Origin: Carposina sasakii
Lineage: Eukaryota; Arthropoda; Insecta; Lepidoptera; Carposinidae
Reading direction: 5' to 3'
Assembly: GCA_014607495.2 (NCBI GenBank)
Contig: CP053149.1
Span: 14,954,120 to 15,018,119 of the forward strand
Length of the DNA stretch: 64,000 nucleotides
Shown here: positions 1 to 63,800 of the stretch, piece after piece
Position numbering within the stretch: position 1 is the stretch's first letter
How the letters are laid out: every line of letters begins with the position of its first letter
Position numbers and translations under genes: made by a program
Notes under the pieces: generated by a model
What the model was told of the DNA's origin: nothing
Seen by the model: the letters and a program-made list of their open reading frames with translations, nothing else
The model's database searches: none

Positions 1-989
1 CGAACGGACATCTGTCACTGACCCAAAAACAATGGACAGGAATGCACTAGATTTGTTACAAAAGAAAACAGATTTTATTTTAATTTGATTTGATTTCAGA
101 ATGATGGTTAAAACTATTTAATGGTCCGTGGTTCCGTAGGGGCGTGTTCGTGAAAATGGTTTATAAACGAGGATGACAAAATCTAAGCTATCTCAGTACC
201 ATGCCTTGCTTGCGCGCCTAAATTCAATAAAAAATCACAGTTTAGGTATACAGTCAGTCATAGAAGTAAAATTAGCACATTAATGGGAACGCTAGGATCG
301 CGATGAAGTTGAGATATCATCTTCTTCTACGAGTATCTATAACATGTCCTGACTGATTTATCAACGCTGAGGCAAAACTACTGAAGCCAGAAAGTTAACC
401 GTATCTTCCTTTTGCGACATAGAGGTCCACTAAGAAGAGACCCCTGAAATTCCTACGGGAACAGGATTAACAACGACAAAGTTGTGGATAGTTTTCTATA
501 ATACTGAACCCCAAAACGAGTCTTTATTTTAATGCCTAGTATTAATGACATTATCAGAAGCATGTGACCTAGACCGGTGACAGATTCCATTAGATACTGT
601 TCGTTATTTTAAATGCTTAGCCTGGCTGCCGTCCAATAAGACGAGACGTTCCAATGTCTTGCAAATGTTAACAATTACACTAAGATGTCGCTGATATAAA
701 TATGGAAGCGCGCAGATGTTCTTTCTGCCATTTGGTGTATAATTAACATAATGTTAACGCTATAATACACGTCATTTTATCCAGTCCTGAGATGCTGTGT
801 GTATTCCAGGAAAATTGGAAATCAACCATACTAAGGGAATGCTATTGTAAAAGCAAAGCGTAAAGCCAGTAATTTACAATTACAATCTACTGTATACTAA
901 ATAGCTGTTCCCCGATATAACAAAGTTCTCCTAAAATAAAATATATCTGGTCAACCCAAGTTTCATCATTGGTCTCATCGTATTTACCA
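1..989. other. AT-rich stretch without genes
   Basis: No coding region, RNA gene or intact element is recognised. A fragment near 421-475 resembles 52722-52775 (shared core AGGTCCACTAAGAAG and AAATTCCTACGGGA), so it is probably an old interspersed repeat. One TACGAGTA octamer lies at 328-335. Confidence 0.5.
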
Positions 990-1060
990 TCAGGTTAGGT
1001 TAAGGTCCAGCAGTGGGCTGCAATAGGCTGACGATACGATAGGTTAATTAAGGTTAAACA
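990..1060 (+). repeat. LINE 3'-end fragment
   Basis: The core CCAGCAGTGGGCTGCAATAG is the tail motif seen, usually inverted, in the RTE-type fragments of this window (for example 6405-6465, 40803-40875 and 21360-21400). Only about 40 bp is recognisable. It is an old truncated insertion without coding capacity. Confidence 0.4.
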
Positions 1061-1420
1061 TGAGGATATTTTACAATAAAATATGTATCATTTATGTGAA
1101 GGCACAATAGGGTCCAGTGCGGTCAATAATAGCCTAGAATCAGGAATTGTCTAAACCAGACATAAATATGGGACCTGTCACCTCTCAGTTGATATGGAAC
1201 CTCTAGTTTGCTCAACTTACTATTTGTAATTGTCATCTTACACGAATGGTTCCATTGTAATATATGGTATTGACGCGCCTCGGAGTCTAGAGGTCGTGTA
1301 TTCAAACCCGCGGTCGTGAACTTAGCTATTGACTGAAATCTATTGTAAATTTCCTTCAGGTGCTAGCTCCTTCTATTATACTGGAACATTACCTATAGTA
1401 GCGAAGTTAATCTCATTTTT

Positions 1421-1562
1421 AGCCGACTGCGCCAAAGGGGGCTTATGTTTTTCAAGTGTATGTTTGTATGTACAATTTTTTTGGGCTTCTATTTGAGCTT
1501 GAGAGGTGTCATTTGATTCATCGTCGCGAAAGTGACACTGGGTCAAAATTTTACGCGGTCGG
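1421..1562 (+). repeat. interspersed repeat starting AGCCGACT
   Basis: The block runs from AGCCGACTGCGCCAAAGGGG to a TTTTACGCGGTCGG end. I recognise it as the style of a common moth and butterfly non-autonomous repeat whose ends carry an ACCGACTTC-like word; compare 6064-6929. No second copy of this exact subtype is in the window, so the family assignment rests on general recognition. Confidence 0.35.
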
Positions 1563-4500
1563 GTTTATTTCTTTAAACAATTAAACTTGCTCTCAAAGCT
1601 ACATATGTACATAAACCACTTAAATCTCTGATACTCGTAATTTGATATATTCGATCTCGTATGTAGTCTACAAGTATTCTTATTGAAATAAATTTAATAA
1701 ATAAATAAATAAATTTAAAGATATCGATATGTAATTATGTCACAATGTCTTGTGATCAAAATTAGTTTGGACTTGTTCCGTAGGACGTAATTCTTGTCAT
1801 CTACTAATAACAATTTTTTTTCTAATATGCTTTTATATGAAAATACACGAAAGTGGTCGATCGTTTAATATTTAATGTGAATCAATTTGTGTCGATTGAA
1901 ACTTTTATTCTATCGTAAAATTGTTAGGTTTACGTCGATGGTCTAAATAGTAATGGTTTATTTATCGATCCTTTTGAATATATTAATGGCTTTCACACGT
2001 GGTTAAAATTGTGACTATTATTGATGTGAAAAAGTTCAACATCATCCTGCCGCCTTATGAATCAAATCACGAGTTAAAATATCGAGCCATAAAAAATGTG
2101 GTACATTTTAGTACCTTGTTTAGGCCGCTTGAACTTCGCCCACTGCAAACTATGACTGACGTGAAACAATACTAACAATAAACCGCTTATTTAAACATTT
2201 GTATTTACAACTAGCTTCTCTTTAGGTCCTGTTACCTGAGAGACTTTCTTTGCATATTTTGCAATATGCAATCTACGGAATCTAAAAAAAAACACTCGTA
2301 CCTATGTCAACCAATCTTTACGCAAATGTGTTATTTTTATGGTCAATCTTGAGCATAGCATAATCATGAGCATACAACTCAGATTCGCATATGGCGTAAT
2401 ACGCTATAGATTCGTTAAAGAAAATATAATATTAATACGAATAGAAAACAGACAAAGCGTGCTATTTATAATACTTTACCGTCATGCACTAAACGTCTGC
2501 TAAATAAATTTTCAAATATCTCTGCAGTAGTCTACCGCAATGCATTGGAAACATTTTCATACGAAAACATTTTTTTATACAAGCAGATTATTCTGAACCA
2601 GAATATTGGTGTTTATTGGGGGTTCTTGCCAGGAAACAGGAGGCACTTCGTTATGGTTGCGTGTGGGCCTTTGAATTTTTTATCCGTTCTCGCCCAGATT
2701 TGCACGCGGTTTTGCAATTGTTGAGTTTTCTTAGACACAATGTAATTATGGATGTGGATTACGAAGAAGTTCGTACAATGACCCTTAATATTATTACTGC
2801 CCTAGTGGTCGCCCCCTTTCCGACTACGTGGACTGCTATTTTAAGGGTTATTTATGTACACAAACGTTGAAAGACATTTATATTTACAGCCTTTTCCCCG
2901 CAACATTTAGGTAAAAGCGGCCTGTCTTTTCCTTCCTCAGGCTCTTGGAAACACACATCTACTATGTAGATAGTTATTTTCACCTTTAGAATATTCGTAA
3001 GCTTGCGATTGTGCAGTTAATATATTCAAATCTGCAGCAACCATTGGTCCCATCTGTAAAGCTTCACAAAAGCTCATATATTATGTACTTTATCCGCCAC
3101 TTTTCACGCGATTGTTTTACATTTAGAAAGCTTGGACAGTATCCAAAACAGCTTCAGTTTTGATTGTAAAGTGTTGCATAGTGACATGCATTTAGGTGAC
3201 GCGAGATAGAAGTTATGTTATATTATAGCATTTGTTACGTAGGAGTTAGGCATTAGAATAGAATACAATACGTATTCCAATTATAGTAGGTACTGGTTGT
3301 AGATAGTAGTAGGTACTGGTTGCCCACGACTTCATCCGAATCTTAGTGTTTCATAATTTCTGTTCCCTCGGGAATTTTAGTTAATCCTTTTTTTTAGCGG
3401 ATGTCTTCAAGTCATAATCTAGCTGCCTGCCAAATTACACCTATCTTAGTTAAGTAGTTGTCGAGATTTCGTTATGAGAATTTGAGTCATTAGCGACCTT
3501 TCGGTTTAGGTACTACCTATATCTCATCATAGGAATAAAAAACGGTTTTGGCCGTCTATATAGAATGTTGCAAACTACGCAACGGATATCAATAAAGGTT
3601 TCGTAAAAGACCTTCTAGTAGGTAATAAAATTATTATAGAGTAAAAAAATTATGTAGCCAAAGCTACTAGCAACCAGGTTGTTAAAAAACTTATTTATTT
3701 AGTTACGTCTGAGCCGAACTGGGTCGTAATTGTACAATCATCCAAACTTCTCGGTAGAGGATACTAAAGAAAACTTCCCTAAAATGTAGCTTACTGAGTA
3801 ACTCAAAGATAATTTGCCCTTCCGTATTAGTTGCTGGGTTGCTTAGATCTCTGCTTTAAGAATGAGATAGGGTTGAAGTTCGTAATTTATATGCAACGAG
3901 CTGTGTCCGAAATCCAAAAGAAAATCGAGATCCCTCAGGATATTCCTCTAGAAATGCAGATAGTTACAGAGATATGATAAACCGAATGAGATTGCAAATC
4001 CGCAAAGTTGTATCGGATTAGAAACGTACGAGTATCATATTTTCTGTGTATTTTCCCGTTTTATAACGACTGAAGGACACGACAGAAGGATTTTGTGGCT
4101 AAAGAATTTTAGTACTATTGGACATATTTTAAAACGAAATACCAAAGTATAAAGGTCTATATTTCCGAGTATATGAAAGATTTCCCACCAAATATATGAT
4201 TCATTTAATTTGTGTCATAGACTCTTCATTCCATTACCATTTGTAATGAGGTAAATTCAACTAGCACCGCCCCGCGAAACTCCCTGGCGATATTAAATAC
4301 GTCAAGCGGAATAGTAACGTATGCATCTGTAATTTCATTGTGGGCTTCAAAGACCAAGGTTTTAGTAGATATGCCAAAACATTGTTTTAAAATGAAAATT
4401 GCCTTCTGGGATTGTTAGCAGCGTGAACTATATCTAATCTTGTTTTTAGTAGTTTTGTTGTTACAGCGGTATCAAATTATCTCTTTTGCCTTAAGAAGGT

Positions 4501-7600: not shown

Positions 7601-7867
7601 GTTTACATAATTACGTTTATGTATTACTCGTACAATATTACTTACATTGAATGCCTACTTTTACAAACTAATCTCAATTCATGCTGATAACAGTGACTGC
7701 CATTATGCAGCGGTAAACAGTAACTCCAAGTCGCTCCCCGCGTCACACGTAGTACTTAGTTGTTGCTGTGTTATACGTGACGAAAGTTGCGCGGAACACT
7801 TTATGATATTATGTGTATGTTGATCATGAACGACGGATTTGGAGGAGATGTGACATTCAATGTGAAG

Positions 7868-9612: not shown

Positions 9613-10793
9613 TATTATCAATTACTTTTCATGCACCGTACCCTAATCGCCCCTACTCCAGTTTTCGTTTCGGGTTTCCCCAATGCATTTATAGGTTGAA
9701 AACTCGGTCGAGACGTAAAATTGCTTTATCTCCAGTACTTGGTTACACTTTGACGTTGAGATCGGAAGTTATATTCGTCTTTCCTTTAGTTTTAGATGCT
9801 CCGAATGCTTTTTCGGTATCTGCTATGTTGATTACGCGAATTATTTGGGAATGATGAATATTCAGTTGAAAAGTACAGTTTCTGACTTTGAATTTGCTAT
9901 GGTTTTAAACGCTTTCGTTTGAAGTTCCTATGTAATTATGAGTGAAAATTCTTCTATGTTTTTTCTTCTAAATTTACACTTACGAGTATTTTACATTTGT
10001 CATCAGCACCATACATTCTGTACTCCATTTATTTCTTACATAAAAATATTAGATGAAACGTTATCAGGTAGGTTAGTAAGTAGATGCTTTCGTATCTTTT
10101 TTCAAACTGTAGTTTCAAAAGTCTTAAACTTATTTTTGATTGTAATAATAGCGATTTTAAACATTCCTCATATAGTTATGGTTTGATTTATGTAAGACCA
10201 TTGGCGTGTACGATTACAATGTACCTATATCTGAGTAAGTCAGGCCCATTGAGATTATTTATTGCTGCCGGAATGATCGACTCTTGGCGACTATAGGAGG
10301 CTCTAAAATTTAACTGTTTCAGTTCCAACAAAACAGATGGCATATTAACTGAAATATATTACCAACTCGTAGTTACTAGTCCAAATATTAAACCAACTAA
10401 GAGCGAGGTTAGCAAATTTGGGATGAAAATAATCTAAGAGTTATTCAAATTAAATTAGTTGTTTTACGAAAAAAATAAAATTCGTCTAATTCTACTAATA
10501 TTAAAATTGTAAAAGTTTGTGAAAAAAAACTTTGGATAATTGTAAATCTTTCATACAAAACCTTCCGAACGGAGTTTGATGGGATTTAGTAGTTATATAC
10601 TCGTAGGTAACATCAGAATAACATAACATATAGTTGATGCGAGTAATTTCTCGGGCGTCCTATACTAGTGTAATAGGTATGTCCTACTTATGTGAAAGTT
10701 TGTAAGGCGTATACTAAACTTCTACCTTTAGTATTTCCTAAAGGATAATGTATCAATAAACTGACTTTACTGTCAATGTTTTCTTTGTTTCAG
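9613..10793. other. AT-rich stretch without genes
   Basis: Two overlapping short frames at 9938-10296 lack any family signature. TACGAGTA lies at 9981-9988 and TACTCGTA at 10598-10605. Nothing else is recognised. Confidence 0.45.
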
Positions 10794-10873: not shown

Positions 10874-12470
10874 GTTATTTCCTTTGAAGTTATCCATTAT
10901 CTGACAAAGTAAGCAGAACTGCTTCTAATAGACTCGGCTTAGGATATTCTCTTGTAGTTATTGACTTCAGTATACTCGTACCTAATGAAAACATAAGCCT
11001 ACTATCTATGTAGGAGACGAGAATTATTCTGCGTGTTTTAGTTCAGGCATCTTCTTTTGGGTGACTTATTATTGGGCTCGTTTAGTCCTCTGCTGATGCG
11101 GGGCTTCACTAGAATACATCAGCTGCATCTTCCTCCGTGCATATCGCAAGAATTCGTGTGTTCTTTCAGATGATCCTTGGCTTTGTTAAGCCTTAATTTA
11201 AATGACACAATAGGAGTTTTAGTTATAGCTACTATGACTTATTATGTAGTATGATTTTTAAAAAAAGGTCCCCATTAGAATAAGGCAAATGACAAACATG
11301 CTGCATACGTACGTTTTGTGTGTATCCCTGGAGCCTATCTCAAATTGAACCTTTTCTCGCCCAATAATTGTGTAACAGAAAATAGGACCTTTTTAACAAG
11401 TACCCAATTAGAGAAAGAAAATAAACACGCTCTGAGAAAAAATACCTAATCCTCCCTGAATAATAAGGATCGACCGAGGCTGGCTTTGAATTTCAATTTT
11501 ACAGAATCAATTTTTGCTTCAGACTTATAGTCTGAGAGCTAAGTACAATTTTGATAAACAAGTAGTAAGTAATTTCTCGGTTCGATCGTAATGACGAATG
11601 TTATGCGAACTCACTACGCAGAGTTCGGTGATTAGATTTTTCTGATACGAGTATTTCTTTAGTGTAGGACAAACATTGAACAATATACTATAGTATAGTG
11701 ACTTCATATAGTTACACAGTCAATGTAACTATTCTGCTTGGAGTCGGGATTGTTTGTATTAAGTATCATATAAAAATATACAAATGATTCATGTCTCAAA
11801 TTAGGATTGTATTGAAATAGGTTATTATTCTCTTTTGAAGAAAATAAATTATCTAGTCTGTTTCTGGAATATTTGAATTTGAAATTTCTGTTGCATTTTG
11901 GATTTCATGTATATTAAAAATAGCTTTAAGATATGGCTGCTCTCTGGCACTCAGTGAGATGCAATAGGGGTAGTGTTTTCACTGTATCCGGGTATGTTCA
12001 ATAAAGTATACCTATATGTGTGTGTGTGTATTTTTAGGTTTTTATTTTTCTTGTGTTCTGATGGCTATTTGATTTTAAGCAAACTTGATTTAGGTTATTT
12101 CTGAAATACTTTATGTACGATACAAATTACATTATTATGTGATTGTTATTAAAATATTATAGGACATTTTATAGCATACACGCCCTTTATATGCCGCATA
12201 CTTAACTGCCGCCATTACATATTACATTATTAATTTTATGTTGTAACAATATTTAACAAGATTGATGATGAATTAAATCATTCACTGTCTACGTCTAAGA
12301 TAATGCGTGAAGTGTCGAATAAATTTTAATTGTAACTGTCAGCCAAGTCGAACGTAAAGTTGTTATTTATGTACTCTCAAACAGTTAATTATATGAATAC
12401 GTTGTATGCAGAAATTGAAGAAAGAAAGTTGGCGTCAGGCAAACGACAAACGCAAAATATGAGTTTCGAT
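10874..12470. other. AT-rich stretch, repeat G fragment only
   Basis: The only recognised repeat is G at 11091-11155. TACTCGTA lies at 10973-10980 and TACGAGTA at 11646-11653. A short TG run occurs at about 12017-12028. No gene is supported. Confidence 0.45.
11091..11155 (+). repeat. interspersed repeat G copy
   Basis: GATGCGGGGCTTCACTAGAA, ACATCAGCTGCATCTTCCTC and GCATATCGCAAGAA match the 7279-7350 copy in order. Confidence 0.5.
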
Positions 12471-15328: not shown

Positions 15329-15768
15329 ACGTACGAGTATATGGGTATAGCGAAGTCTTAAAGGCGTTTTTACGAGTAGAAATAATGCCACTTGTCTAGA
15401 GCGGCGTCAAATAACAAATTTCGCAAAAACAAATTTTTGTACACGAAGCTCCAGACATACAGTTGTCTACAAAAATGAATTTACCCACACATAACCATTA
15501 GTCAAGGAGGGAAAGGAAAGAAAAATTGTACCGTCCTCGTCCCAAGTATTTTAAACAACTCTAGAATTTTAATTATGTTTACATTCTTCAGCTGCACAGA
15601 AAAGTCAGCTATTTTTCACGGCAGCATGTTCTTTTCACCCTTTGTTTATTTTGCTGCAATATTTGAGTTTGGCAACAGTTTGTTAGGTTTATTACTTACT
15701 GGCTCCTTGCGATTCTGTCTACATAAACGCTCGTGGTGTTATTTAAAATTTAAACTTATTAATTAATT

Positions 15769-16972: not shown

Positions 16973-17114
16973 TATACAGCCCTTACGTGTACGTTCTTTT
17001 TAACGGGGACATTCGGACTTCCAATTGCATGCCGCATTTGTAGAAGAGCATTTTTTCAGAAGTTACTTTAGTTCTTAGTTTTGTAAGTAAGTATACTCGT
17101 AAGAACTTTTAATG

Positions 17115-18214: not shown

Positions 18215-18388
18215 TACCCTCTCAGGCGTAAGCGTGGGAAGGCCACACATAAGTTGGACGGACGACCTAGCCAGGACTGCGAGTATCAGCTGGATTCAGA
18301 GCGCTTCCAACAAGTCGCAGTGGGAGTTGTTGGGGGAGGCCTACTCGTATGTTCAGCAGTGGACTCAAAATGGCTGAAATGATGATGC
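18215..18388 (+). repeat. RTE LINE 3' end carrying a micro-insertion
   Basis: Plus-strand words GCGTGGGAAGGCCAC, GGTTGGAT-like residues, GTGGGAGTTGTTGGGGGAGG and the ATGATGATG tail align with the reverse complement of 21345-21520. Relative to that copy it contains an extra six bases at 18344-18349, converting a TA into TACTCGTA. The insertion has no coding function; an open frame across it (18185-18382) is decayed reverse transcriptase C-terminus. Confidence 0.65.
18342..18349. other. TACTCGTA scar, candidate Minos-type excision footprint
   Basis: In the RTE tail the sister copy (complement of 21380-21395) reads GAGGCC-TA-TGTCCA, while this copy reads GAGGCC-TACTCGTA-TGTTCA. The change is thus exactly CTCG plus one duplicated TA. 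The same octamer or its complement occurs at 328, 1632, 4027, 7625, 9981, 10598, 10973, 11646, 15332, 15371, 17094, 18342, 20594, 26929, 27804, 28771, 32233, 33799, 37325, 40350, 41931, 53405, 53527, 56945, 59247, 60505, 61043, 61105, 62766 and 63392 (first base given). Minos, a Tc1/mariner-superfamily transposon, duplicates TA and leaves its four terminal bases (CGAG or CTCG) on excision. Confidence 0.6.
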
Positions 18389-19330: not shown

Positions 19331-19710
19331 AGAGACAGAATCAACTTTAGGAATCCTTCGACAGACTGACTATTGGAAAAATTGGTTCATACACACTTTG
19401 ACATTATAATTAAGATTGCGAAATTTTATTATAATAGAATAGAAATATTCAGATATATTGTTTAGGTTTTCATTTTCTAAAATACTATGATTACAATTTA
19501 TAACACTAGTCAGAACCAATGGTAGGGGCCGTCTGCTGTAAAATGAATAAACTAGGCATCCCACGGGCGGCCGCTCCAGTGTACATCCCGTACCTGAGGC
19601 GTTCAGTCTTTCTTTCTTTAATTATAATCGGTCTTCTCATAGTAACTACCCTCCAAGACTCCCCGGATTAATGGTACACATCTGTTTACCTATTTCCACT
19701 ATTAGATCCT

Positions 19711-20523: not shown

Positions 20524-21005
20524 GGGTAGGGAAACATAATTTTATATTGTGCTTTGTTTGTTTTATAGCTCGTATATAGGTCCTATTAATATATACTCGT
20601 ATATATTTAATATTAAATAAGCTTACGCTTGACCACAACGCGCCTGATGGTTAGCATCGTTGCAGTCTAAGATCGAGCGTGCTTGTCTAAAAGAAACCTG
20701 TTAACTCTCGATTTGAAGACCGCAAGATTATAGTTCATGGGGAACAGGGATTAAAAATGGCCGTTTTTGTCAAAATGCTTAAAAAAAACCGGTGTCGCCT
20801 TGACGTTTCCCTGGTCGTCCGGTGGTCGAAGGGTGCTATCATTATATAATTAATCCTTGAATCTAACTTCAATCACGCTCAATAGTTGAAAAATAACTCA
20901 TACATGCTTGCTTCTGTCTAGAGAGAAGAAAGGACCTCTTACCCGAATGCTCTCAAGGAATATTATTGCCACTAAGAATTTGAGCGTATGGTTCAGATTA
21001 TATAA
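20524..21005 (+). repeat. repeat J, local duplication copy 2
   Basis: Aligns with 19711-20270 from GGGTAGG to the TTCAGATT end. About 75 bases of the middle are replaced by a short unrelated segment (20750-20790), and smaller deletions are scattered through it. TACTCGTA at 20594-20601 lies in what is a plain TA run in copy 1. Confidence 0.6.
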
Positions 21006-26310: not shown

Positions 26311-27212
26311 AGTTAGGTAAATAAGGAAGTAGGATGGAGCAATACGACAAATAAATGACTGTCATTTTACATCCTGAGCCTTAATGAAGTCACTGTGACA
26401 CGATCACGTGACTTATTACAGGCTCTACACATCTTCAAACCTGTGACGTCATACCTCCCGAATATCCCGACATATTTATTAGTAATCAGCTTGATACAGT
26501 GTTATCACGTCTCGAAGTGTCTCGAAGAATATTGGATTCCACAGGGCTTTAATTAAAGGGAATTGTGAAGGCACGTAACGTCTCTATATTGCATACATAA
26601 TATGTGGACGTTAAGGTGGTATATCAGAGATATATCATACGGGGATGTGTAATAAAAAATCTTGGAAAATGAGGGTAGAATTAAGGGTGAACGAACTTTG
26701 ATATTGCGGTCGTTTTGCTATGAATGTAGATTTTGGATACTGATATACCTATATTTGTTATGAGATCTGATCTGATATGAGATGAGATCGAGTGATTATG
26801 ACATGTTATTGAATTGTGTGCATAATGCCTTTTTACTATAGAATAGAAGTGCATCTGATTGCGTGGGGACGCCCTCCGTTAACTTTTGCAATTCTTGAAG
26901 AAGTACCCATGGCAAGATTTATGTGATTTACTCGTACTTGTATCATAAGATAGTGATTTTTTTTCACGACTGCAAACTTTTTTATTTTACCAGTGTTCAA
27001 TAAAAACGTAAGATATAATACCTAAGTAATGAAATAAGATTTGCTTGACTATAAAAATGTTTTCTTTAGGTAATTTAATACTGTTTAAGTAATATTTACC
27101 ATGCCTGCGAGATTTCAATCGGGCCCTTTTAATTAAACTCCCGCCAGACTCCCCGACGTTGATGCAAAAATTAATATTCCCGAAGTAAATTAAAGGCGGT
27201 TTATACTGTACT

Positions 27213-27300
27213 AGCGGGTGCCCGCGTCTTTGTCCGCGTGAACTATATGGGGTGTTGATTGGTTGCCACCATTTACGGCGGCATTCTTGAAGAACTCTAG
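27213..27300 (+). mobile_element. ACTAG-ended repeat fragment
   Basis: ACTAGCGGGTGCCCGCGTCT followed by GTCCGCGTGAACTA is the CTAG terminus of the Helitron-like family, continuing for about 70 bases. The unit B copy is at 32453-32540. Confidence 0.5.
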
Positions 27301-27925
27301 TGTTTTCTCAGGCAATAAGCTAGCAACTTATCACTATTATTAACATAATATGTTCCTGCTATGCTAAACGTGGTTGAGGGATGTCCTTTATGATCCTGCA
27401 GTTCTGGCTGGCTACAGCCGTGTGTCAGTATGTAAAACATAGGTATGTATGTACTTACCTTAGCTTTAACGAATAAAGAGCATGACAATATACCATTAAA
27501 TTTACAAATTTCATGTCGACCTAAGATTATGAATTCTGTTTAGTAAAAATATGGTTTAAACTTCGCCATTATTTGTTTAGACGTAATTAGATTTTGCAAT
27601 CAATAAGTTTTTTTTACATTCCTTAGTTTCTTATTCTTCGGGAATAGGCAGAATTTCTAGACTTACATACTTTTTATAGTACTTTAATACTTACTATAAA
27701 ATCATTTAAACTATTGAAACATCGAAATCCACATCAACATCGATATTTACTGGCAATGTTTGTCCCTGCCAAGATTCTAAAATAAGGCCTGCAGCTTATA
27801 AGGTACTCGTAGGGTTTAATGACAAACATATACAGCTTCTCATCTTTTCCCACTTCATAGAGGAGATAACATTTTATACATAGGTAGGTATATTATATTA
27901 ATATATTTTATACACATTTATTTTT

Positions 27926-28183: not shown

Positions 28184-29003
28184 CATTCTATGTTCTCTAT
28201 GGAGTGTGAAAATATGAGATGCTGTCTTTATGTTTGTCATTAAACCCTACCTTTTAAGCTTAACTTTCAGAAATAATCCAATATAATATTTCTAATAGCA
28301 TCTAAAACCTTGATAAGACCTTTTAACAGCTAAAGGGCTAATAATACATCTGACGGCTCAGACTAATGCCAACGTCACACGACGCGAGCTACTGACGGTA
28401 GACAGCTATGCACCAGTATACTCGCATTACAGTATTTTTACTCGCCTTACCCGGTCAAGTAAGTGCAAGCTGCTGTTGAGAAAGTAGACAGAGTTGTAGT
28501 AGTTCCGCTCCTGACTGTCCCTCTTATGTTGCTTGCTCCCGCTTTGAGAGTGTACAGTGGAATGTCACACAACACTGTCCTAATCTGTTCTAGAAAAAAA
28601 AAACAGAATATAATCAATCGATCAGTCTGTTACCGCGCTTAGGCACTTAGGTGTAGTAAACCTTCTCGGTATTTTGGGTAAAGCCTTTAAAAGGGTTCTC
28701 TATTAAAGTCTAAAGTTATTAAATGGATATAAGTACTTTTATTTCGGCTTATGTGAGATTATTATAATCGTACTCGTATGTGAAGGGCGCGAATAGATTT
28801 ATTAGAAGAATGTTTATTTCAAGTTTTACCGATATAGGGATTACCAAGAACACTTAAAGCTGTTAAAAGTGTTTTTAAGAGACGCTTACTTAGTGCCTGT
28901 AAGGTCGTCTTGCTTCCACATCTGCTTTAATATTTCATGACACTAAAGACAAACGCTGGCAAAGTGTTATAATAATTAAGGTAGACAGATGATCAATGGA
29001 AGG

Positions 29004-31398: not shown

Positions 31399-33054
31399 TC
31401 CATCCATATTTAAATCCTACACACACATACTTTGTGATTCCGCTGTCCCAGGATAAAATAAAAGAACTTGACATGAGCTGCTTACCGGTGGTTTGTCATC
31501 ATAATCTGCAAACCTCTTTATAATCGTAACCTTTATTTGTGTAGTGAATATGTATCTTTTTTTGGGTGTCGGGCAAATTAATAAAATGTCATGTGAGTAT
31601 GTTGTATAACAAACAAAGCGACACCCCGCGAGAATTATATATAAACCTCATGAATCACTCTATCTTTTAAAAAAAACCGCATCATTCGTAAAAGATACCA
31701 TACTAGGGACGGACAACAGCGGCAACGATATTTTAAAATGTAGTGATGGATAGTTATAAATAAGAATAGGGTTACGACTTAAATGACTGTCATTTTTCCT
31801 TTAATGAAGTTGTGACACGATCACGTTTATTCAGGCCTACACAAACTGTGAGTCATACCTCCCGAATATCCCCATATTTTAGTAAAGCGATCAGTTATCC
31901 GTCCGAAGTGGAAAATAGATCCACAGGGCGAATTGTGAGGACGCGTCCTATATTGCATACATAATATGTGGCGAGGTGGCAAGATCTACGGGGGTGTAAA
32001 AAATCCCTTGGATGAGGGGAATTGGTGAACGAACTTTGATATGCGGTCGTTTTGCTATGAATGTAGATTTTGATACATACCTATATTTGTTATGAGATCT
32101 TCATAGAAGATCGACGATATCATTATTAATTGTGTGCATATGCCTTACTATGAATAGACCCAGGCACTGATGCGTGGGGACGCCCTCCGTTAACTTTTCA
32201 ATTCAAAATACCCATGGCAAATTTATTGGATTTACTCGTAGTATCAAAATAGATAGTGACACCTGCCTTTTTTATTTTAGGTTCAATAAAAACAGATATA
32301 ATACCTAAGTAATGCAATGATTTGCTTGACTATAAAAATGTTTCTAGATATTTATCTGTTTAGTATATTTACCATGCCTGCGAGACAATCGGGCCCTTTT
32401 AATTAAAAGTCCCCGAGTGATGCAAAAATTTATTATAAATTATTTATTTGTACTAGCGGGTGCCCGCGTCTTTGTCCGCGTGACTACATGGGGTGTTGAT
32501 ACAAAATGGTTACCACGGCATTCTTGAAGAACAGTGTTTTCTCAGGATAAGTAGCCTATTATTAACCTGTCATAATATATTCCTGAAAACGTGGTTGAGG
32601 GATGTCCTTTATGAAGTTCGGTGGCTCAGCCGTTGTCTGAGGATTATGCTTACTTAAACGAGATAAAGAGATGCCATAACCAAAATATTTAAAATCATCG
32701 TAAGATTTGAATTCTGTTTATAAAAAATGGTTTACTTATTATTTTTTAGACGTATTATTTGTGCAATCGTTACATTTTTATCTATATCTTAATAGGCAGT
32801 TCTAGATTCATACTTTTTTAGTACTGTTAATACTACTAAAAATATTTAAACTATTGAAACATAAATCAGCATCAACATGTGTTTTGGCTTTGTCCCGCCA
32901 AATTCTAAAATAAAATAAGACATCATACACATGCAGCTTATAATGGAGGGTTTAATGAAAAATATACACTTCTCATCTTTGTCCCACTTCATAGAGGAGA
33001 TACATTTATAATGTATTATAATTATATTATATATTTTAATACAATATTATTCTT

Positions 33055-33215
33055 TTAGCTAACGTGGTGCAAGTAGAGGTCCCTGTTGCCCGTTATCCGA
33101 GATTGTAAATCGGGATGGACAGCAGCGTCCCACTAACATATAAAAACAACCAACAACCCAGCTGAATCATCAGTAGTGTGCGTGCTGGTGCCTACATCAG
33201 CAAGTCAATAGCTCT
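33055..33215 (+). repeat. repeat K in unit B, heavily deleted
   Basis: AACGTGGTGC, GGACAGCAGCG and GGTGCCTACATCAGCA are residual words of the 27926-28183 copy; about half of its bases are missing. Confidence 0.45.
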
Positions 33216-35014
33216 CATCTTGTTCTTATGAGTGTGAAAATATGTGATGCTGTCTTTATGTTTGTCATTTAACCCTACCTTTTAAGCTTAACTTTCAGAA
33301 ATAATCCAATATAATATTTCTAATAGCATCTTAAACCTTGATAAGACCTTTTAACAGCTAAAGGGCTAATAATACATCTGACGGCTCAGACTAATGCCAA
33401 CGTCACACGACGCGAGCTACTGACGGTAGACAGCTATGCACCAGTATACTCGCATTACAGTATTTTTACTCGCCTTACCCGGTCAAGTAAGTGCAAGCTG
33501 CTGTTGAGAAAGTAGACAGAGTTGTAGTAGTTCCGCTCCTGACTGTCTCTCTTATGTTGCTTGCTCCCGCTTTGAGAGTGTACAGTGGAATGTCACACAA
33601 CACTGTCCTAATCTGTTCTAGAAAAAAAAAACAGAATATAATCAATCGATCAGTCTGTTACCGCGCTTAGGCACTTAGGTGTAGTAAACCTTCTCGGTAT
33701 TTTGGGTAAAGCCTTTAAAAGGGTTCTCTATTAAAGTCTAAAGTTATTAAATGGATATAAGTACTTTTATTTCGGCTTATGTGAGATTATTATAATCGTA
33801 CTCGTATGTGAAGGGCGCGAATAGATTTACTAGAAGAATTTTTATTTCAAGTTTTACCGATATAGGGATTACCAAGAACACTTAAAGCAGTTTTGTTTTC
33901 ATTGTAGAAGCGAGACGCTTACTCTAGTGCCTGTAAGGTCGTCTTACTTCCACAATGGAATTCTGCTTTAATATTTCATGACACTAAAAGACAAACGCTG
34001 GCAAAGTGTTATAATAATTAAGGTAGACAGATGACTCTCAATGGGAGGTATATGTCACCCGTATATTCCTACCGCATAACCGAACTAGCTTATGTAGTTT
34101 TGATACATATTCATCGAAGTAACTAGAATCGTGTAACTCTCCCTTTATGAAGACATTTTTAAGGCGAGTCGGTAACTACGTAGGTTGCACCCACAGTACC
34201 TACAGCTTGAGTATTTTCTCTTTGCGCATATTTCTCAAGTCTCCACGTGAAAGTGAAAAGGTCTTTAGAATTCTATTTTATAAATAGAGATTTGAGCTTT
34301 GTACATTGCATATAATTTATATAACGTAGGTACATTTACTTAAGTTGTCTTAAAACGGATTATTTCACGGTTCACGGTGTGTGATTTTTAAGTGGAAACA
34401 TCTCTATTTTAAATGAGGGCAGCACTTCCTTCCATTGTTTTAGTTTTTAACAGCTAATTAATCAAATCGCCTTTGCCCAACAGTGGGACACGGTATAACT
34501 AGGCTGTCAAAAAAGGGCTAATCACTCAGTTCTATGATCATCATCGGTCCTCGTCCTAACCACGGAGACCCTAAAAGGGAATTGCTGTAACGAAATAAAA
34601 GCACCAAATGGAGATGACGAATTAGTCAGGTATTTTACGCGCCCCTAGCACAATAAAATGGTCGATAAAGGGTGACATTTACTGTAGATCAATTAACTCG
34701 AATGGCTTATTGTGACGCAACAGGTGATAGGAAAACTTAAAATAAACAGTTTAGTGTGGAAGTTTTGTGTTCTTGTGTATTTCCCTTGTATATTTCTACC
34801 TTATCATGTTACCTAGGTGAGATTTGCAATTTGTGTCGAGGTGTGTTAAAAGTAATTTTGAATTTATCTTTTGATAAAATTTAAAGTACCTACTTATATT
34901 ATTTGGTCAATAATATTTTTGAAATTGGATTCAGACATATAAAGAAATTCGTCTAGATCAACAATATACTTTTCACGGTGCAATTTCCCCAAATTTAACA
35001 AAATACTTTACACA

Positions 35015-37256: not shown

Positions 37257-38347
37257 ATATGTTCTATACAGTTGCCTATATTCATAACGCTTCGTTTGAC
37301 ATACTCCTTTTGTTACGTCCTGCATACTCGTAACCGCAAATATTATAATACGTATTGCCGATGAGGTTGTAATAAATCAGAGCATATTGCCAACATTGTG
37401 TATTCTTTGTACGCTAATTCTAATTAGTAAATGACATAATACATCATACACTATGTTCGCTCTATGATGGAGCAGGATACATTAGCGATGAATTATAATT
37501 ATTAAGGCACTTCTGTTTTGGATGTCACTGTCAGGATAGAAACAGATAATTTATAATGTATTTTAATTACATTGTATATAGTGAATTGAACTGAATATTG
37601 CAGGTACCTGTTAAGAAGTTATCCCGAGGTATGATAGCGTCCATAAGATATATAAAAAAAACAACAACTGAATCTCGTTGCGTGCGTGTCGTAAGTCTAG
37701 TTCTCATTTTTCAACATTATGCGAAAATTTATTCTCCCCTCAAATTATAATTTTAAAATTGTAGTAAATATTTAATGACACACACAATAGCTTCATGTCT
37801 ACACTCATAGTTATCTAAATCAATTTTCCCAATCAGTATTCAGTGTTGCCAGCCCCCCTCTTTCGGCTCCACTTTCACTAACACGCTCAAATACGATCCA
37901 ATTTCCCCAGATTCCATTAAATAAATTAGTTCACTAATAATGGAGGTCGAATTCTGCAGAAATTACAATAACTTGCCCATTTGTTTAGAGCTTGGAAAGT
38001 TCAAGAACGTTATTGACTTACTTTATTGTTACTAGGTTATTGTTTATTATTGTAACTTACTACTTATAATTCCTATATAGATCTGTAGCTCTCTAGCTAT
38101 CGGCATTTTACCAATTAACTTCATATAGTTTAGGTATGTAAGGCTCCGTTCCATATGTTTCATGATACTTGCTATATAGTTAGTATAGATTTAGCTATCT
38201 AGGTTTTCTACCTGTCCGATTGTAAATATTGTTTGAAAATAGCTGTAATATTTCATTTCTTATTGAAATAGTTTTCGTATTATTTATTTCATGCGCTATT
38301 TGCATTGAGTATTTACTGTATCGAACAGTATTCGGTCATAAAATATA
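37257..38347. other. AT-rich stretch with a decayed MITE-E half
   Basis: About 37275-37330 resembles one arm of MITE-E (CTTCGTTTGACATACTCCTT, TTGTTACGTCCTG) and ends in CATACTCGTA, a scar octamer at 37325-37332. Nothing else is recognised. Confidence 0.4.
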
Positions 38348-39005: not shown

Positions 39006-40802
39006 AATGCAAAATCTATTATTTTATTACATCACAATATCTATTCTGTGTTACCAAATGATTACCAACATCAAAGAAAGGTAGGTAGGTATTGATCAAA
39101 GACCAATTAAATCCACATTGGAAACAGAGCACGTTACCGTAACTAATCTATTCCTAGACAAAGACAACATACGCGCCGCCGACACGGGATCATATTTACG
39201 ACGTCTCCAGCCTTCTTTGTTATCAAAGAAAACTGTACGTAGCTTTTCTTAGGACAAGGCTGGAAAGACTGACGTCCAGTGCAGTGTTTTAGATAACCTA
39301 AACATATGTCGAATCGAACATAGCTGATTGTTAAAAAAGTTATTATTTTTGTTTTTTTTTTGTCACATGTTCATTTGGTCTATTCTGATTATACCTATTA
39401 CCTATTATTATGTTAGCCCGCATAGTTTACTGACGGCTATTTGTCTGCTTTCGCATTGGCTATGTGTCTGCTTTCGCGTCATGCAATCATCGCATCTTGT
39501 CTTGTCACTTCTTGACAAATTTGTCAAGATTAAGAAGCATACATTTTTCAATGAAGAAAATCGTACATAAAAAGAAAAAATATCTGGACCAAAATCGACT
39601 TAAGTGGTGTAACAATTATTGTCGGTCGGAACTATAATTACACACAAGGTAATAATAATTAAATGTTTAATATTTCACACTACAAATTAGAACTGTATTA
39701 CCATATAAAAAAATTGCTTGCGATAATCTATAGCCTATACAGCTTGTTGAAGGAATGGCATTAGCGTCGTAAAGTGTTTTATTCGGCCACAAACGCCTCG
39801 CTATTACGATACGCTCTAGGTTACGCCCTTACGGTTTTATGTGACACTGACATTTATTTTATAGTCTATGAATGTACTGCATAGACTCTGGGATACTACA
39901 AAATTGATTTAGCAGGAGGTATGAAAATAATTTGATGGCGCCCACACATGGCGACTACACAATCTTTAGAAATCTTGCTTTTTCCTGCTATCGAGGGTGT
40001 AGTTTCTCCAGTCGTAGTATCATTGTCTGTTAGTCACTCAACAATCATTGTTCTCAGTAACATTAGTAGCTAAAATTGATCCTTAATTATATCGTGTTAT
40101 TTAGCTAAACGGTTTCTGTAATTGATTGATAGATAATTAACATTTACCGAGTAATACCCCTAAATTCAATTTATGTAAAAACCTTCGGGCTCTCCACTTT
40201 CTAGAATTGTTGACCGCAATTATACCCATTCACTCTAGCTAGACTATCAAGAAATTACTTCATAACATCCACTTCAGTTTAATTGAGGCCTAAAAGCTCT
40301 CATTCTAGGGCCATATTTAAAATTGCGTCACTTAAATTAACTTAATTACTACGAGTAGTATAAACAACAGAATTGACAGTTTGACATTCGTCGCCATAAA
40401 ATCTACAGTGCACACTAATTCGGCATAGACAGTGCTGCCGTAGGGTAATTATGAAATAAATTTGCAAAACTTTAGAAATGGACAGCACAATTCAAACAAA
40501 TTGAATTGAGTTAATGGACTCGTCCGGGACGTCCAATTTGTCAGAAAACAAAGTGATAACGTGTCTGGAAGTTTTGGCACCATTCTAATTGGAGTTCGCA
40601 AAATAGCTTTTGTTAATAATACAAGTTTTTTGTGCGGTGTTGCTTGGGGAATTGGGAATATTTATTTATTGATAGAAAATTCGGTTCCTAAAATATGGTG
40701 TCTCAAAAATTATGATGTCCCTATACTGGGTACTTAGCTACATTCTGTTTGCATCATACTGTAGCTTCGTAAAGTTTTCTTTTTTTTGTCCTTATTAAAA
40801 GA
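39006..40802. other. stretch without recognised features
   Basis: No coding region, RNA or repeat pair recognised. An 80-codon frame at 39328-39570 is AT-driven and hydrophobic. One TACGAGTA lies at 40350-40357. Confidence 0.45.
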
Positions 40803-41757: not shown

Positions 41758-42534
41758 TATATGTATTGACATAAAGCGACGTGAATTCTACGTGCCTACC
41801 AGTTGCGTGACTAGGGAATTCTAATCGACTCTATGTTTCAAGTTGTCCGATATCTATTGTGTAATAGTATCCATTACTAATATTAGGTAATTATTTTATT
41901 TTGGTAACTTAAAGAGGCACGCAGTGGACATACTCGTATGTTAGTCTGTCTAAAGAATAAAGCAACAACCTTTACCAGCCGCTCGCTTGAAGCAAGATTG
42001 ACTCAATTATAAAATTATTAATTTTGACTCAATTGCAAATAACATGTAATTGGAAGTGGGGACAATTTTCGTATAATTAGGTCAAACACATTTCTTGCTA
42101 TAATAAGCGCAGTGTCCTAGTCAGTTAGATCCGTACAAAAGGTCAGGCACCCAGACGCCGACGCTCGTAACGTGTGCTTGCTTTCAATTATTTAATATTT
42201 ACTTGGTTATTTGTGAAAGTTTCGCTTTCATTGTGTTTGTAACTGTCTGCTTGGTACTTTATTACATACGTTTTCGCCATTAATCCGCAAGCTTTGGCAG
42301 GGTTCCCAAAAGAAGCGTTTGTGAATCAGTTTTGGGTGAATTTATTGGAGTTATGAAAAATGGCAGGTCTATTTCCGTTGCCTTTTCTCTTTGAATTTTT
42401 CGGTGCTAAACTAATTGAATTGATTTTGTGTTTTGTTACTTCTGTTATTTATTCATTCTACTCCTCACTGTGAATATTGTAATTATTAATTTTGATATAG
42501 TATAGGTAAAAAATTTATTTTATGTCTATCTATA
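41758..42534. other. stretch without a supported gene
   Basis: TACTCGTA lies at 41931-41938. A TATAATAA followed 24 bases later by TCAGTT at about 42119 was considered as a promoter and judged too poorly spaced. Nothing else is recognised. Confidence 0.4.
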
Positions 42535-45073: not shown

Positions 45074-45106
45074 ATTTCTTAAAATAACCATAAGGATGGT
45101 CTTACT

Positions 45107-46141
45107 ATGGGTTCTCCGCTTTCATCTCTTTTAGCCGATATATTTATGGATTGGTTTGAAAATGAATATATTGTTAATAGTAATAATCATATAAAATATT
45201 ATTTTAGATATGTTGATGATATCATCTTATGTTGGACAGGCACAGTTAGGCAGTTTCATCTTTTTGTTAACGTCCTTAACACAAAACATCCTAAGATTAA
45301 ATTTAAAATAGAACAAGAAATAAACAATAGTATAAATTTTTTAGATGTAACTATTACTAGATTGGGAGATTATCATGATTTTTCAGTTTACCGGAAACCA
45401 ACACATACAGATGTAACTATTCCAATTGATTCTTTCCATCCATGGCAACATAAGCTTGCGGCATACAAATCAATGATACACAGGTTAGTAACGTTACCGC
45501 TTAATAACTTTAATTATGTTAAAGAAATAAATACTATTATACAAATAGCCAGATCAAATGGATATAGTTCACAACTAATTTATAACCTAATTGATAAAAA
45601 GAAAAACATTTTAGTTAAACAAATGTTGTACCCAAAAATAGAGGAGATTACAAATATTTACACTGGTAGTTTACCATATTTTGGCTATATCTCAGAGATG
45701 ATTGCAAAATCATTGAAAAAACAAAACATCTTGGTGGCTTTTAAGACTTTTAATTCTTTAAATAGATTAATTAACACAAAACAAATATTACCAATTGATA
45801 AAAAATCAGGAGTTTATAGCTTGCACTGTCCTGACTGTAATTCTGTTTATATAGGTCAAACGGGTCGTAACTTCAAGATTAGATACCAAGAACATTTGGC
45901 AGCTTATAGGAACAATTTCCCTGAAAAATCACATTTTGCCAAACACTTGTTAGTTTCAAATCATAAAATTCCAGATGACCACAGTTTTGTTAGTCTGCAT
46001 ACGTGTGAAAAGGGCATTCGTCTATCTATTTTGGAACAGTTGGAGATTTTGAAAGCCAAATATTCTGGTGTAAACCTTTTAAATGAACAGGTTGAATTTT
46101 CGTCTCCGCTATTAAACTCATTGGCTAGAATAAATAAATAA
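45107..46141 (+). CDS. Penelope-like reverse transcriptase with GIY-YIG domain, N-terminally truncated
   Basis: The 344-residue frame opens at an internal methionine of the motif (K)DGLTMGSPLSSLLADIF. The in-frame sequence upstream (HKDGLT) is still Penelope-like, but a stop lies at 45080-45082, so roughly the first half of the reverse transcriptase is missing. The catalytic YVDD is at residues 35-38 and NFLDVTI near 77. A linker follows, then a zinc-binding CPDC (241-244) with downstream histidines (263, 280). The C-terminal GIY-YIG nuclease core has GVYSLHC (235-241), VYIGQTGR (247-254) and an arginine in KIRYQEH. Full-length relatives are much longer. It cannot prime a full cycle alone, but the sequence retained is uninterrupted. 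Confidence 0.9.
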   Translation: MGSPLSSLLADIFMDWFENEYIVNSNNHIKYYFRYVDDIILCWTGTVRQFHLFVNVLNTKHPKIKFKIEQEINNSINFLDVTITRLGDYHDFSVYRKPTHTDVTIPIDSFHPWQHKLAAYKSMIHRLVTLPLNNFNYVKEINTIIQIARSNGYSSQLIYNLIDKKKNILVKQMLYPKIEEITNIYTGSLPYFGYISEMIAKSLKKQNILVAFKTFNSLNRLINTKQILPIDKKSGVYSLHCPDCNSVYIGQTGRNFKIRYQEHLAAYRNNFPEKSHFAKHLLVSNHKIPDDHSFVSLHTCEKGIRLSILEQLEILKAKYSGVNLLNEQVEFSSPLLNSLARINK

Positions 46142-52800: not shown

Positions 52801-53593
52801 TGTCCATTTATTTTTATATTCTACGTAAAAAAATGAATAAAGTTTGCCCTTGGAATGGTATATTGATATATAAAGCAATTCAAAAATACGAGCCGGCAAA
52901 ACGTTGTTTGTTGTTGTTTTTGAAACGCTCCGTTTGCTCCATACTAAAATGGCAAAGACTTTGACGTCATAGTAGACAACCGTCTCAAATTAGTATGGGG
53001 AAAAAATGAAATCTTATTTTATAAACGTAATATTTTAATATTTTGTGTATTGTCAATAAAAATTGTTTATTAATAGGTGCAGATAATTCAAAATATGGGT
53101 AAAATTATATGTTTTTACTCCTTTTATGTTGTAAATTTTTTTCGTTAAATTTTTCAAACTTTTAATCTCCTGTAACTGTAACTTTGGTATTTACTAACCG
53201 ATTGATGTTATTTTTGCACTTTTCGATTTGTAATTGTAATATCTTTAGAATAAAATATCAAAAATCTGTTTTCGTATCAGACGCATATTCCTTATTGTAA
53301 TCGGCTAGTCTAGTATAATTGTTGTACTGTGATCAACTCGCAGTGTTGGTAAACGGACAGAGTGCCAGCGTTTGTGTCGCTAGTTACCAATTAGCGGTGT
53401 ACACTACGAGTACATATATCTCTGGGTGCTAACATTGTTCTACAGGCCAGTGTGTGCTATTAAGGAATGAAAAAGTTAGCGCTTAACGTTTTTATTGTAT
53501 ATGGGTATGAAAAAACTCATATGACATACGAGTAATTTAAGAAAAATCTATGTTTTACTGTGTTCTTATAAATGCTAATAATAAGCAATCCCA

Positions 53594-56868: not shown

Positions 56869-57221
56869 ACTAACACTAAGGTTTACAACACACATTAGCA
56901 CATAGGTATACTTTTAGTATAGTACACTACTAGAAAGTTACCTATACGAGTATATAGATTGATTTCTCTTAATTATTGTCATTTATTGTGTCTAAATTTT
57001 GCCAGAAATTCCTTCATTAATGCATTTATTAAAAAATTATATCTTATAATCTTTCCTTTCTCGAAAGATAATTACGAGTTTGTTAAATTTTATCAAGATT
57101 CATTCACCTGTTTTGTCGTGAAATGTCGACATACAGAAGTAGGTATTTTCATCTTGAGTAAGTGTTTGCTACTTTGGTAACCATTATAAAGTTTTAGTAT
57201 TTTATTGTAAACTGAAAATAT
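56869..57221. other. AT-rich stretch
   Basis: TACGAGTA lies at 56945-56952. Nothing else is recognised. Confidence 0.4.
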
Positions 57222-59183: not shown

Positions 59184-59669
59184 GTTATAATAAAAAAAGT
59201 TTTTTTCCGGTATCCATATGTTTATTTCGATAGGACAGCAAGTTTATACTCGTAGTTATAAAGTTATAATTTCTTTTTCTAAAATTTCAAACTTTGAATC
59301 GTTCTCATGTAAATTTCTATAAATGACGCTTATTCCAATTTGCCTATTACCCCTCGATATGTTGAAACTCATGTTTTGATGCGCTTCAAATAAATAGTAG
59401 GGGTGACCTACAAGTAAACTCGCGCCCGTCTTGTTATATTTCAGTTTGGTCCAAGTTAAAATGGTGTGTAAATTTCTTACATAAATCGTACACTGCGGTG
59501 TCAGTGGCCATACTTGAAATGCGAATTTATATGTACTTGTTAGTTTGTAAGTGGGCGGTTTAATGACTTCATATATGGACCTAACTAGCGGCATCCCGTG
59601 ACTATGTCCACGTGTCATTCTGATGTATAGGCTATACACCTGGCAAAATCCATTCAGTAGATTTATATA

Positions 59670-60420: not shown

Positions 60421-61080
60421 GGTATGAAATGACGTACCTTGATGTACTTAAGAAGAAGGACTAGGTTAACATATTGTAACTAAGTGAAGTGTGTAGATGT
60501 TATATACTCGTATTTTCGGAAGACGGCATGATGGAAATCCGTAAATAAACAGGCGTAACTAGACCTTGACCAGCTGATATTACGGCGTCACTGGTTACCA
60601 TCACTTACTCACTTTTAATAAGATGCACTCGTACATCAGGTGGGGTCATTTAGCAGGCTTTGATGCCACCTAGCGGTCGTTACCAGGATTTATGGGGTTA
60701 CCACATCCTTCTTCTGGGGTTAGGGAAGAGATATTGGTATAAAATACCGAGACCTGTTAAATCATCGTCACTAATATGGTGTCCATTTATCGAAAAAAAA
60801 AATCGCCCACGTGAATTTACGAATCAAAAGGCCAATATTAATAAACGTGAAGTTGTGACGTTATCATACTTTATTCCGAGATGTAAAGTGATATTTTTTT
60901 TTATGGAAAAGTCGTAAATTGAAAGTCGGAGTATGCTCGGACTAACATTGAAGGATGTCCATGAATCTGAGGTTTATAACTTTTATATGAAAATGAATTT
61001 CTGATCGGAAACGCAGATCTACAATTTAGATTTTTTATATCTTACTCGTAGTTAACAAATGCGCGTGTCCAACGTCATAT
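60421..61080. other. stretch without recognised features
   Basis: An 85-codon frame at 60660-60917 has no motif. TACTCGTA lies at 60505-60512 and 61043-61050. Confidence 0.4.
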
Positions 61081-61135
61081 TCGTAGTAGATACTACGCGG
61101 GCTCTACTCGTAGCAATGCTACGAATATACTACGA
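61081..61135. repeat. second TACG-rich palindrome cluster
   Basis: CGTAGTAGATACTACG (61082-61097) and TCGTAGCAATGCTACGA (61108-61124) are adjacent hairpin-forming palindromes. The latter is nearly the same word as at 53949-53966. Confidence 0.6.
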
Positions 61136-61167
61136 CGAGCGAACTCTATGCACTAAACCTACCTATA

Positions 61168-62397: not shown

Positions 62398-62763
62398 CAC
62401 AATATCGCGGAAACAATGCGGGTTTAGATGTATTTGATGTTTAATGGGTATGTTAGTGTTTATTCCTAAGGTGGTATTAAGAAAATGTGTATATTATATA
62501 GCACTAGCGAATACACACGACTTCGCGTAAGTAAAGTATAGAAATCTACAACTCAAAACGGACGCCTTATCGGATGCCTACACAATATCGCGGAAACAAT
62601 GCGGGTTTAGATGTATTTGATGTTTAATGGGTATGTTAGTGTTTATTCCTAAGGTGGTATTAAGAAAATGTGTATATTATATAGCACTAGCGAATACACA
62701 CGACTTCGCGTAAGTAAAGTATAGAAATCTACAACTCAAAACGGACGCCTTATCGGATGCCTA
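62398..62763. repeat. exact 183-bp tandem duplication
   Basis: 62398-62580 and 62581-62763 are identical at every position. The unit contains CACTAGCGAATACACACGAC and TTCGCGTAAGTAAAG, related to 63479-63515. Absence of any difference means very recent duplication, concerted change or an assembly artefact. Confidence 0.9.
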
Positions 62764-62774
62764 CCTACGAGTAC

Positions 62775-62900
62775 ATCATAAGCCGCGTCCGGACCGATCG
62801 AGCACGGCTCGCGCGGCTGCCTCGCGAGCCATTGTCTCGGTCGATGTGGACCTGCCTCGGGCGCACGTTGCCTCGGCCGAGCGTGCCTCGCGGTCGAGCT
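62775..62900. other. small GC-rich island
   Basis: A 125-bp island of CG-rich words, including TGCCTCG repeated at 62848-62892 and CCGGACCGATCGAGC, in otherwise AT-rich DNA. It abuts the 183-bp duplication and a TACGAGTA scar at 62766-62773. No coding frame is evident. Confidence 0.5.
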
Positions 62901-63800
62901 ATCGGCTGTCGCTAAACTCTAATCTCTCTCTAAGTAAGCTCTAACTGTCGGTAAACTCTAACTAAGATCAAAACTTTAAATTTAAGCTGTATGTTGATCC
63001 TTCAGTGAGCCATTCATATATCTATAGGTGAGACCTAGGAATTTCGTTTTGATGAAAAAGTTATTCTATTAAAACATAGAAAATCGACTAATAGGTATAG
63101 GTAACTACTGCAGTCAAAGCTAAACATTGTAAATGTGACATACTTAGTCTCAAGTCAAATGGAAGTATAACAATTTAGGATCACCGTGATTCAACAATTT
63201 TGGCTACGCCATTTAGCCGAAATGTAAACATTTTAGAAGCACCTTATACACATAACCAAATGATTCCTCTTATCCAAACTTGAGCAAAACCAATATTACG
63301 TTTCCAGTCAATTTCAACCTGGCGGTGAATATTTTTCATGTATGCCAATATCCCTGCGCGCAATAACTGCATCTTACGCATCTGCTGCATATACGAGTAA
63401 CCTGTTTCTCTAACAAAGTCCTGCGGATTTATGTGGAACTTTTTCAATTTCATGGAACAGTGTTAATAATATATAGACACTAGCGCCATTGTTACGAGAC
63501 TTCGTAAGTAAACTGTGGTATTGCATATGATGAATGCGGCCGATGCTGCGGCTGCCTTATTGGATGCTCTGAGGTATTCAGAAGGAGGAAATCAAATTTC
63601 GGAGGGGAATTATGTCTTGGTATGAGCAGAGATAACCCTAGCCAAGATGGCGCATATAGAGCAACACAACCGTATTAAAAAATATTTGCATTCTTCTTAA
63701 ACTTTAGAGGAGGACCATAAATGTCAAAATACATGCGTTAACACGTAGTCTTATGAATTCTTTAGCGATGTCTCTCCACTACATTATCGTTGTTATTGTA
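62901..63800. other. stretch without a supported gene
   Basis: A 69-codon minus-strand frame (63244-63453) has no motif. TACGAGTA lies at 63392-63399. A fragment at 63479-63560 resembles part of the 183-bp unit. Confidence 0.4.

Follow-up and report, generated by a model that had tools for sequence, protein, structure and literature searches.

Most copies of the octamer TACTCGTA and its complement TACGAGTA in the Carposina sasakii genome were very probably left by the excision of a Tc1/mariner-type cut-and-paste transposon that had TA as its target and ends reading CGAG...CTCG. Where sites could be compared, exactly 6 bp have been inserted at a TA to create the octamer; this holds for both orientations and for unrelated repeats. 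We infer a like origin for the remaining octamer sites and, since no filled site was seen, excision as the cause.

An octamer in excess over background

The window is a stretch of 64,000 nucleotides (C2:14954120-15018119) from a 399-Mb genome in 31 contigs. It carries 30 octamers, against 2.1 expected from a first-order Markov model, and among window octamers with at least 12 matches on both strands this word has the highest ratio of observed to expected counts. The original prediction had listed 30 positions and claimed a large excess over chance, with 28 independent sites and two duplicate copies. All 30 positions, from 328 to 63392-63399, were recovered (Table 1), and the pairs 28771/33799 and 26929/32233 account for the two copies. 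The surroundings of the former pair are 98% identical and those of the latter 78-79%. Both pairs belong to a duplication (approximately 26800-28900 and 32100-33900) whose stretches are up to 98% identical and share these two octamers.

Table 1. Octamer sites in the window (positions in the 64,000-nucleotide stretch)
Octamer	Position	Strand	Context
TACGAGTA	328..335	-	
TACTCGTA	1632..1639	+	
TACGAGTA	4027..4034	-	
TACTCGTA	7625..7632	+	
TACGAGTA	9981..9988	-	
TACTCGTA	10598..10605	+	
TACTCGTA	10973..10980	+	
TACGAGTA	11646..11653	-	
TACGAGTA	15332..15339	-	
TACGAGTA	15371..15378	-	
TACTCGTA	17094..17101	+	
TACTCGTA	18342..18349	+	Inside common repeat end (probably a LINE-type 3' end)
TACTCGTA	20594..20601	+	TA-rich tract; paralogue 19710-19889 differs there, no clean 6-bp gap
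TACTCGTA	26929..26936	+	Common to 32233 (duplication)
TACTCGTA	27804..27811	+	Plain-TA paralogues at ~28261 (-) and 33289 (-)
TACTCGTA	28771..28778	+	Common to 33799 (duplication)
TACTCGTA	32233..32240	+	Second copy of 26929
TACTCGTA	33799..33806	+	Second copy of 28771
TACTCGTA	37325..37332	+	
TACGAGTA	40350..40357	-	
TACTCGTA	41931..41938	+	
TACGAGTA	53405..53412	-	
TACGAGTA	53527..53534	-	
TACGAGTA	56945..56952	-	Aligns weakly (32.8 bits) with one copy that lacks the octamer
TACTCGTA	59247..59254	+	
TACTCGTA	60505..60512	+	
TACTCGTA	61043..61050	+	
TACTCGTA	61105..61112	+	
TACGAGTA	62766..62773	-	
TACGAGTA	63392..63399	-	

Other features of the window include an open stretch at 45083-46138 (+) with matches to reverse transcriptase and GIY-YIG domains, both below the Pfam cut-offs, a pairing known from Penelope-like elements. 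Mitochondrial ribosomal protein S34 is weakly matched at 2508-2867 (+) (E 0.0018, below the cut-off).

A genome-wide count against a control octamer had been proposed as a check, and the excess holds at that scale. The octamer occurs 81,143 times (40,504 + 40,639) and its reversed control 9,134 times (4,525 + 4,609), about a ninefold difference that leaves an excess of some 72,000 copies (72,009). Further measurements used a 264-kb sample, 0.07% of the genome, composed of the window and 20 loci of 10 kb (L001-L020). This sample contains 82 octamers against 8.3 expected. By ratio, 22 other octamers with at least 25 matches outrank it there, many of them overlapping one another as words of one repeat would. 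The window itself is denser than average: its 28 independent sites compare with 13.0 expected from the genome mean (P ~2e-4), and they also exceed the rate of the other 20 loci (P ~0.007). Both P values are uncorrected for the window having been singled out.

The excess is confined to the exact word. In the 264-kb sample the 24 single-substitution neighbours of the octamer stand at expectation (205 versus 216), and their ratio of 0.95 is the one shown by the median control octamer of matching composition (up to 300 controls). Two near-variants that had been described as visible are at background (TACTCGTT, 6 versus 9.1 expected; CACTCGTA, 4 versus 5.0). Among TA-NNNN-TA fillings seen at least eight times in the sample, CTCG/CGAG is the furthest above expectation. 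Flanking preference at the 82 sites is mild and roughly symmetric about TA (T is scarce immediately before, 13 versus 26 expected, and A immediately after, 12 versus 26), and no base outside the eight letters is fixed. The octamer can thus be ruled out as a word of one repeat family, since no base is constant past 8 bp.

So sharp a word would also suit a functional DNA-binding motif that is kept or spread by selection and involves no insertion scar. A young footprint, however, would give an equally sharp word. A binding motif also fits poorly with exact 6-bp TA insertions in both orientations, within repeats whose other copies are empty, and with the existence of inverted nested pairs (see below), and is accordingly a very improbable source of the octamers.

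Near the end of one contig, the octamer positions of C1:40032-42396 recur at 76907-79267, an offset of approximately 36.9 kb, with neighbouring octamers 43 bp or 86 bp apart. This arrangement looks like a duplication, inside which the octamer is part of a tandem repeat.

Empty sites, insertion spectra and nested scars

Paralogues within the genome were used in place of an outgroup. Alignments to paralogues span the octamer at 11 of the 82 sample sites, not counting weak paralogues at L008:9431 and window 56945. Clean 6-bp empty alleles exist at two of these 11 sites, window positions 18342 and 27804. Four others are duplicates with the octamer in both copies, and the remaining five are ambiguous or have a gap of another size (20594, L006:1691, L007:4007 with 3 bp, L010:5743 and L015:9262 with 9 bp). 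The site at 18342 lies in a repeat end of which a fuzzy scan of the window and other extracted loci recovered 21 copies. Nineteen of them are without the insertion, 16 of these 19 have TA at that point, and TACTCGTA is present at the same TA in two (window 18342 and L039:2362). This repeat end is probably the 3' end of a LINE-type element, because the copy at 21398 (-) lies near the end of a reverse transcriptase frame at 21357-22244 (-) that matches RVT_1 above the cut-off. At 27804, two paralogues carry a plain TA, and a third at 32934 is also 6 bp shorter but has GA in place of TA.

Insertions at one TA of a repeat can also be listed without specifying the octamer. The first repeat treated in this way (flanks AGTAAGTTTA and TGCCAAAA) has 11,105 empty copies genome-wide. 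A search allowing 1 to 14 extra bases found 59 copies, in which the insertion is 1 to 12 bp long, with peaks at 4 bp (27 copies) and 6 bp (8 copies). The eight 6-bp insertions comprise four CGAGTA, two CTCGTA, one CGAATA and one GGTATT, such that six are exact scars and CGAATA is one base off. Eight inserted copies align with eight empty ones in their immediate flanks, and some diverge further out. Exact scars occupy this TA at a rate of 6/11,105 (0.05%), below the genome mean of 0.18% derived below.

At the second repeat (flanks GTGGTGACTA and TGGGCAAA; counted by eye), 43 copies have 1 to 8 extra bases. The seven 6-bp insertions are two CTCGTA and one each of CGAGTA, TGAGTA, CTTGTA, CTAGTA and TGACTA. 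TGAGTA, CTTGTA and CTAGTA are one-step variants of the scar, TGACTA is a local duplication, and a 5-bp TCGTA insertion may be a shortened scar. Across both repeats, the 15 six-bp insertions include 9 exact scars and 4 that are one step away. A fixed short residue is therefore found in both orientations at one target (four CGAGTA and two CTCGTA at the first repeat, one and two at the second), and an insertion whose residue is bounded by TA at either end is seen at these two genome-wide repeat sites and at two window sites. Because four one-step variants accompany nine exact scars at the two repeats, the young age of the scars is only loosely bounded, despite the lack of a one-step halo in 264 kb. 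A pattern tried earlier at the LINE-type TA returned five insertions of 4-9 bp, none of them a scar; this pattern required GTCC, and the two known scars have GTTC.

If TA is the target, the TAs of existing scars should also be hit. Dividing the 72,009 scars in excess by the genome's TA dinucleotides, estimated at 39.1 million, gives a scar rate of approximately 0.18%, and random TA targeting at this rate predicts 265 nested pairs. The pattern for adjoining scars occurs at 476 sites genome-wide, versus 46 for the control. The first 50 of these sites (contigs C1 and C2) include 38 perfect pairs and 12 with a CTAG or CGCG partner, which scales to roughly 362 perfect pairs, 1.4-fold over prediction. 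Twenty-six of the 38 have the same orientation, eight read CTCG-CGAG and four CGAG-CTCG. Thus, scar TAs themselves serve as targets, though inverted pairs (12/38, 32%) are fewer than the expected half. Same-orientation pairs are over-represented (26:8:4 versus 19:9.5:9.5, chi-square P 0.05). Some nested pairs may have another origin, given this surplus and the 1.4-fold excess.

These data bear on whether the 6-bp inserts could have come from local duplication or polymerase slippage. Some insertions do resemble such products (TTTA, 4 of 59 at the first repeat; TGACTA at the second), and the surplus of same-orientation nested pairs is in keeping with them. Inverted pairs at 32% instead of 50% leave room for some slippage among the rest, but the inverted ones did not come from slippage. 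Moreover, neither CGAGTA nor CTCGTA lies beside either empty site, and both orientations occur at the same TA. At the two repeats tested, the exact scars contradict slippage, which as a general source of the octamer merits almost no credence. Excision, on the other hand, had been predicted to seed this DNA with 6-bp insertions at TA, and this proposal draws support from the genome-wide excess, from the repeat copies with plain TA and from nested scars near their predicted rate.

The proposed mechanism and the search for a donor

In the proposed mechanism, the element would insert at TA, and its excision would leave 4-nt single-stranded ends, the four terminal bases on each flank. Two CGAG overhangs would pair at the outer C:G and G:C positions and mismatch in the middle. 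End joining followed by mismatch repair to one strand would yield CGAG, and repair to the other would yield CTCG, giving TACGAGTA and TACTCGTA. Approximately 72,000 such events would have been inherited in the lineage, whether a moderate number of copies hopped many times or a burst was later cleared by excision. The donor would since have died out or become too rare to be noticed. Mixed-repair products of a 4-nt overhang have no clear excess in the 264-kb sample (TACTAGTA, 20 versus 13.5; TACGCGTA, 2 versus 6.9; these palindromes were counted on two strands).

Excision of Minos, a Tc1-like element from Drosophila hydei, leaves exactly its four terminal bases. Its terminal bases next to TA, CGAG, are the same as the scar residue CGAG/CTCG found here; with the target TA included, the Minos end is written TACGAGCCCC... 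in PMC3680223. The original prediction termed the vanished mover Minos-like, a name for which these four letters speak. The 25-base Minos end has no match in the genome at up to three mismatches, no CGAG-ended element was seen, and no donor, transposase or inverted repeat is tied to the scars. Identity with Minos is unproven and should not be claimed, and Minos-type footprint serves as the working description. Reading frames in the extracted loci align to an approximate Minos protein sequence with 23-39% identity over at least 190 residues.

More generally, the excision gap of Tc1/mariner elements is described as being repaired by end joining, with terminal letters left between two TAs (PMC8151067, PMC2874221). 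Sleeping Beauty and other members of this superfamily share the TA target and a residue between two TAs with the scars described here. However, the Sleeping Beauty footprint is the three-letter CAG (PMC8151067; written TAG(T/A)CTA in PMC2874221), whereas the residue here has four letters and that of a second class has two (see below).

The sample offers little sign of an abundant donor. TACGAG not followed by TA has no excess in 264 kb (64 versus 79 expected), which lends no support there to a high-copy donor, or a MITE, whose ends read TACGAG. The description of the mover as vanished therefore stands for a high-copy donor within this sample, but not for a low-copy one. Recurrent matches to TACGAGGCGATT lie inside a longer repeat, since they have upstream sequence in common. 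A scan of the sample for TA-flanked inverted repeats gave 374 pairs, many nested in each other, with no multi-copy family beginning CGAG or CC.

Scoring of 150 of 380 candidates for PF01498, the Tc1-type helix-turn-helix family, yielded at least 118 matches. Inverted ends could be resolved at 13 of the 19 Tc1-like loci examined (all but L021, L024, L030, L036, L055 and L056) and define seven families. These resident families have TA-flanked inverted repeats around PF01498 matches. Their ends read CAGTGGGTTGCC, CAGTGTGTTC, CAGAGGGTGGCC, CAGTAGTGGAC, CAGTCTGTTTGAC and CACTCGCGAGC, or CAGGGTG in two longer elements, and none of the 13 resolved loci has CGAG or CC/GG ends. The two longer elements (L034-L038, L052 and L053) are 4.3 and 5.2 kb in length, have long inverted repeats starting around TATACAGGGTG, and carry Tc1-type open frames of 371 and 351 aa. 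The donor may still exist at low copy number or lie outside the PF01498 family.

A resident Tc1-like family might instead have produced the scars through unusual cleavage. One example is the family with ends beginning CACTCGCGAGC, which contain both CTCG and CGAG; its copy at L026 lies between TAs, and the inverted ends of this copy match. The letters next to its TA are CACT and not CTCG, though, and its footprint would need precise loss of CA on each side to match the scars. In addition, the CAGTA and CTGTA insertions expected from the common CAG ends are absent from the 59 insertions at the first repeat. A resident source is very improbable on these grounds, and the preferred source is an element with CGAG...CTCG ends that has yet to be seen.

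A probable second footprint class and its possible wider meaning

TA-GG-TA and its complement TA-CC-TA are a probable second footprint class, from another unseen element. At the first repeat, GGTA or CCTA makes up 15 of the 59 insertions (11 GGTA and 4 CCTA among the 27 of four bp). Possible decay forms there are two GATA and one each of GGTT, GCTA, AGTA and TGTA, and one 8-bp insertion reads GGTAGGTA. GGTA or CCTA accounts for 3 of 10 four-bp insertions at the second repeat (counted by eye). In the 264-kb sample, TACCTA/TAGGTA is the highest TA-XX-TA word, with 450 occurrences against 159 expected (2.8 times) and 100 sites in the window. Most other TA-XX-TA words are also raised, by 1.2 to 1.5 times, so that the excess of its one-step neighbours (3,255 versus 2,804) is weak evidence of age. 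Extrapolation by length from the 264 kb suggests approximately 400,000 GG/CC scars genome-wide, a figure to which simple repeats may contribute and whose underlying sample includes the non-random window. TACCTA/TAGGTA adjoins the octamer in nine counted arrangements in the sample, against 0.1 expected.

Taken together, the two classes could be read, tentatively and with more doubt than confidence, as a ledger in which the departures of transposons are recorded. Scars of two or more unseen elements that target TA (CGAG/CTCG with approximately 72,000 scars and GG/CC with approximately 400,000) would far outnumber any surviving donors. In the boldest form of this idea, the donors are not extinct but are removed from body tissue by programmed excision. 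The scars would then be seams left by the removal of TA-bounded elements that the germline retains but an assembly of somatic DNA lacks. Programmed DNA removal in ciliates provides a rough parallel, and the idea would account for scars in the tens of thousands when no donor is visible. This form has no positive evidence in its favour, however, while hopping over many generations explains the count and a low-copy donor is possible. Both as a source of the octamers and as an extension of the ledger it is extremely unlikely.

To our knowledge, excision footprints have mostly been studied one at a time in assays. No genome-wide scar census appears in the titles or abstract openings among the matches listed from the open-access papers searched. 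Footprints of this kind would amount to a fossil record across the genome. Even without the element in view, its entries could be counted, their age roughly gauged from decay, and the preferred targets deduced. If the excision reading is true, they offer a direct measure of how frequently cut-and-paste hopping occurred in the lineage, and tens of thousands of small insertions in a genome can stem from a transposon that is absent from its repeat annotation.
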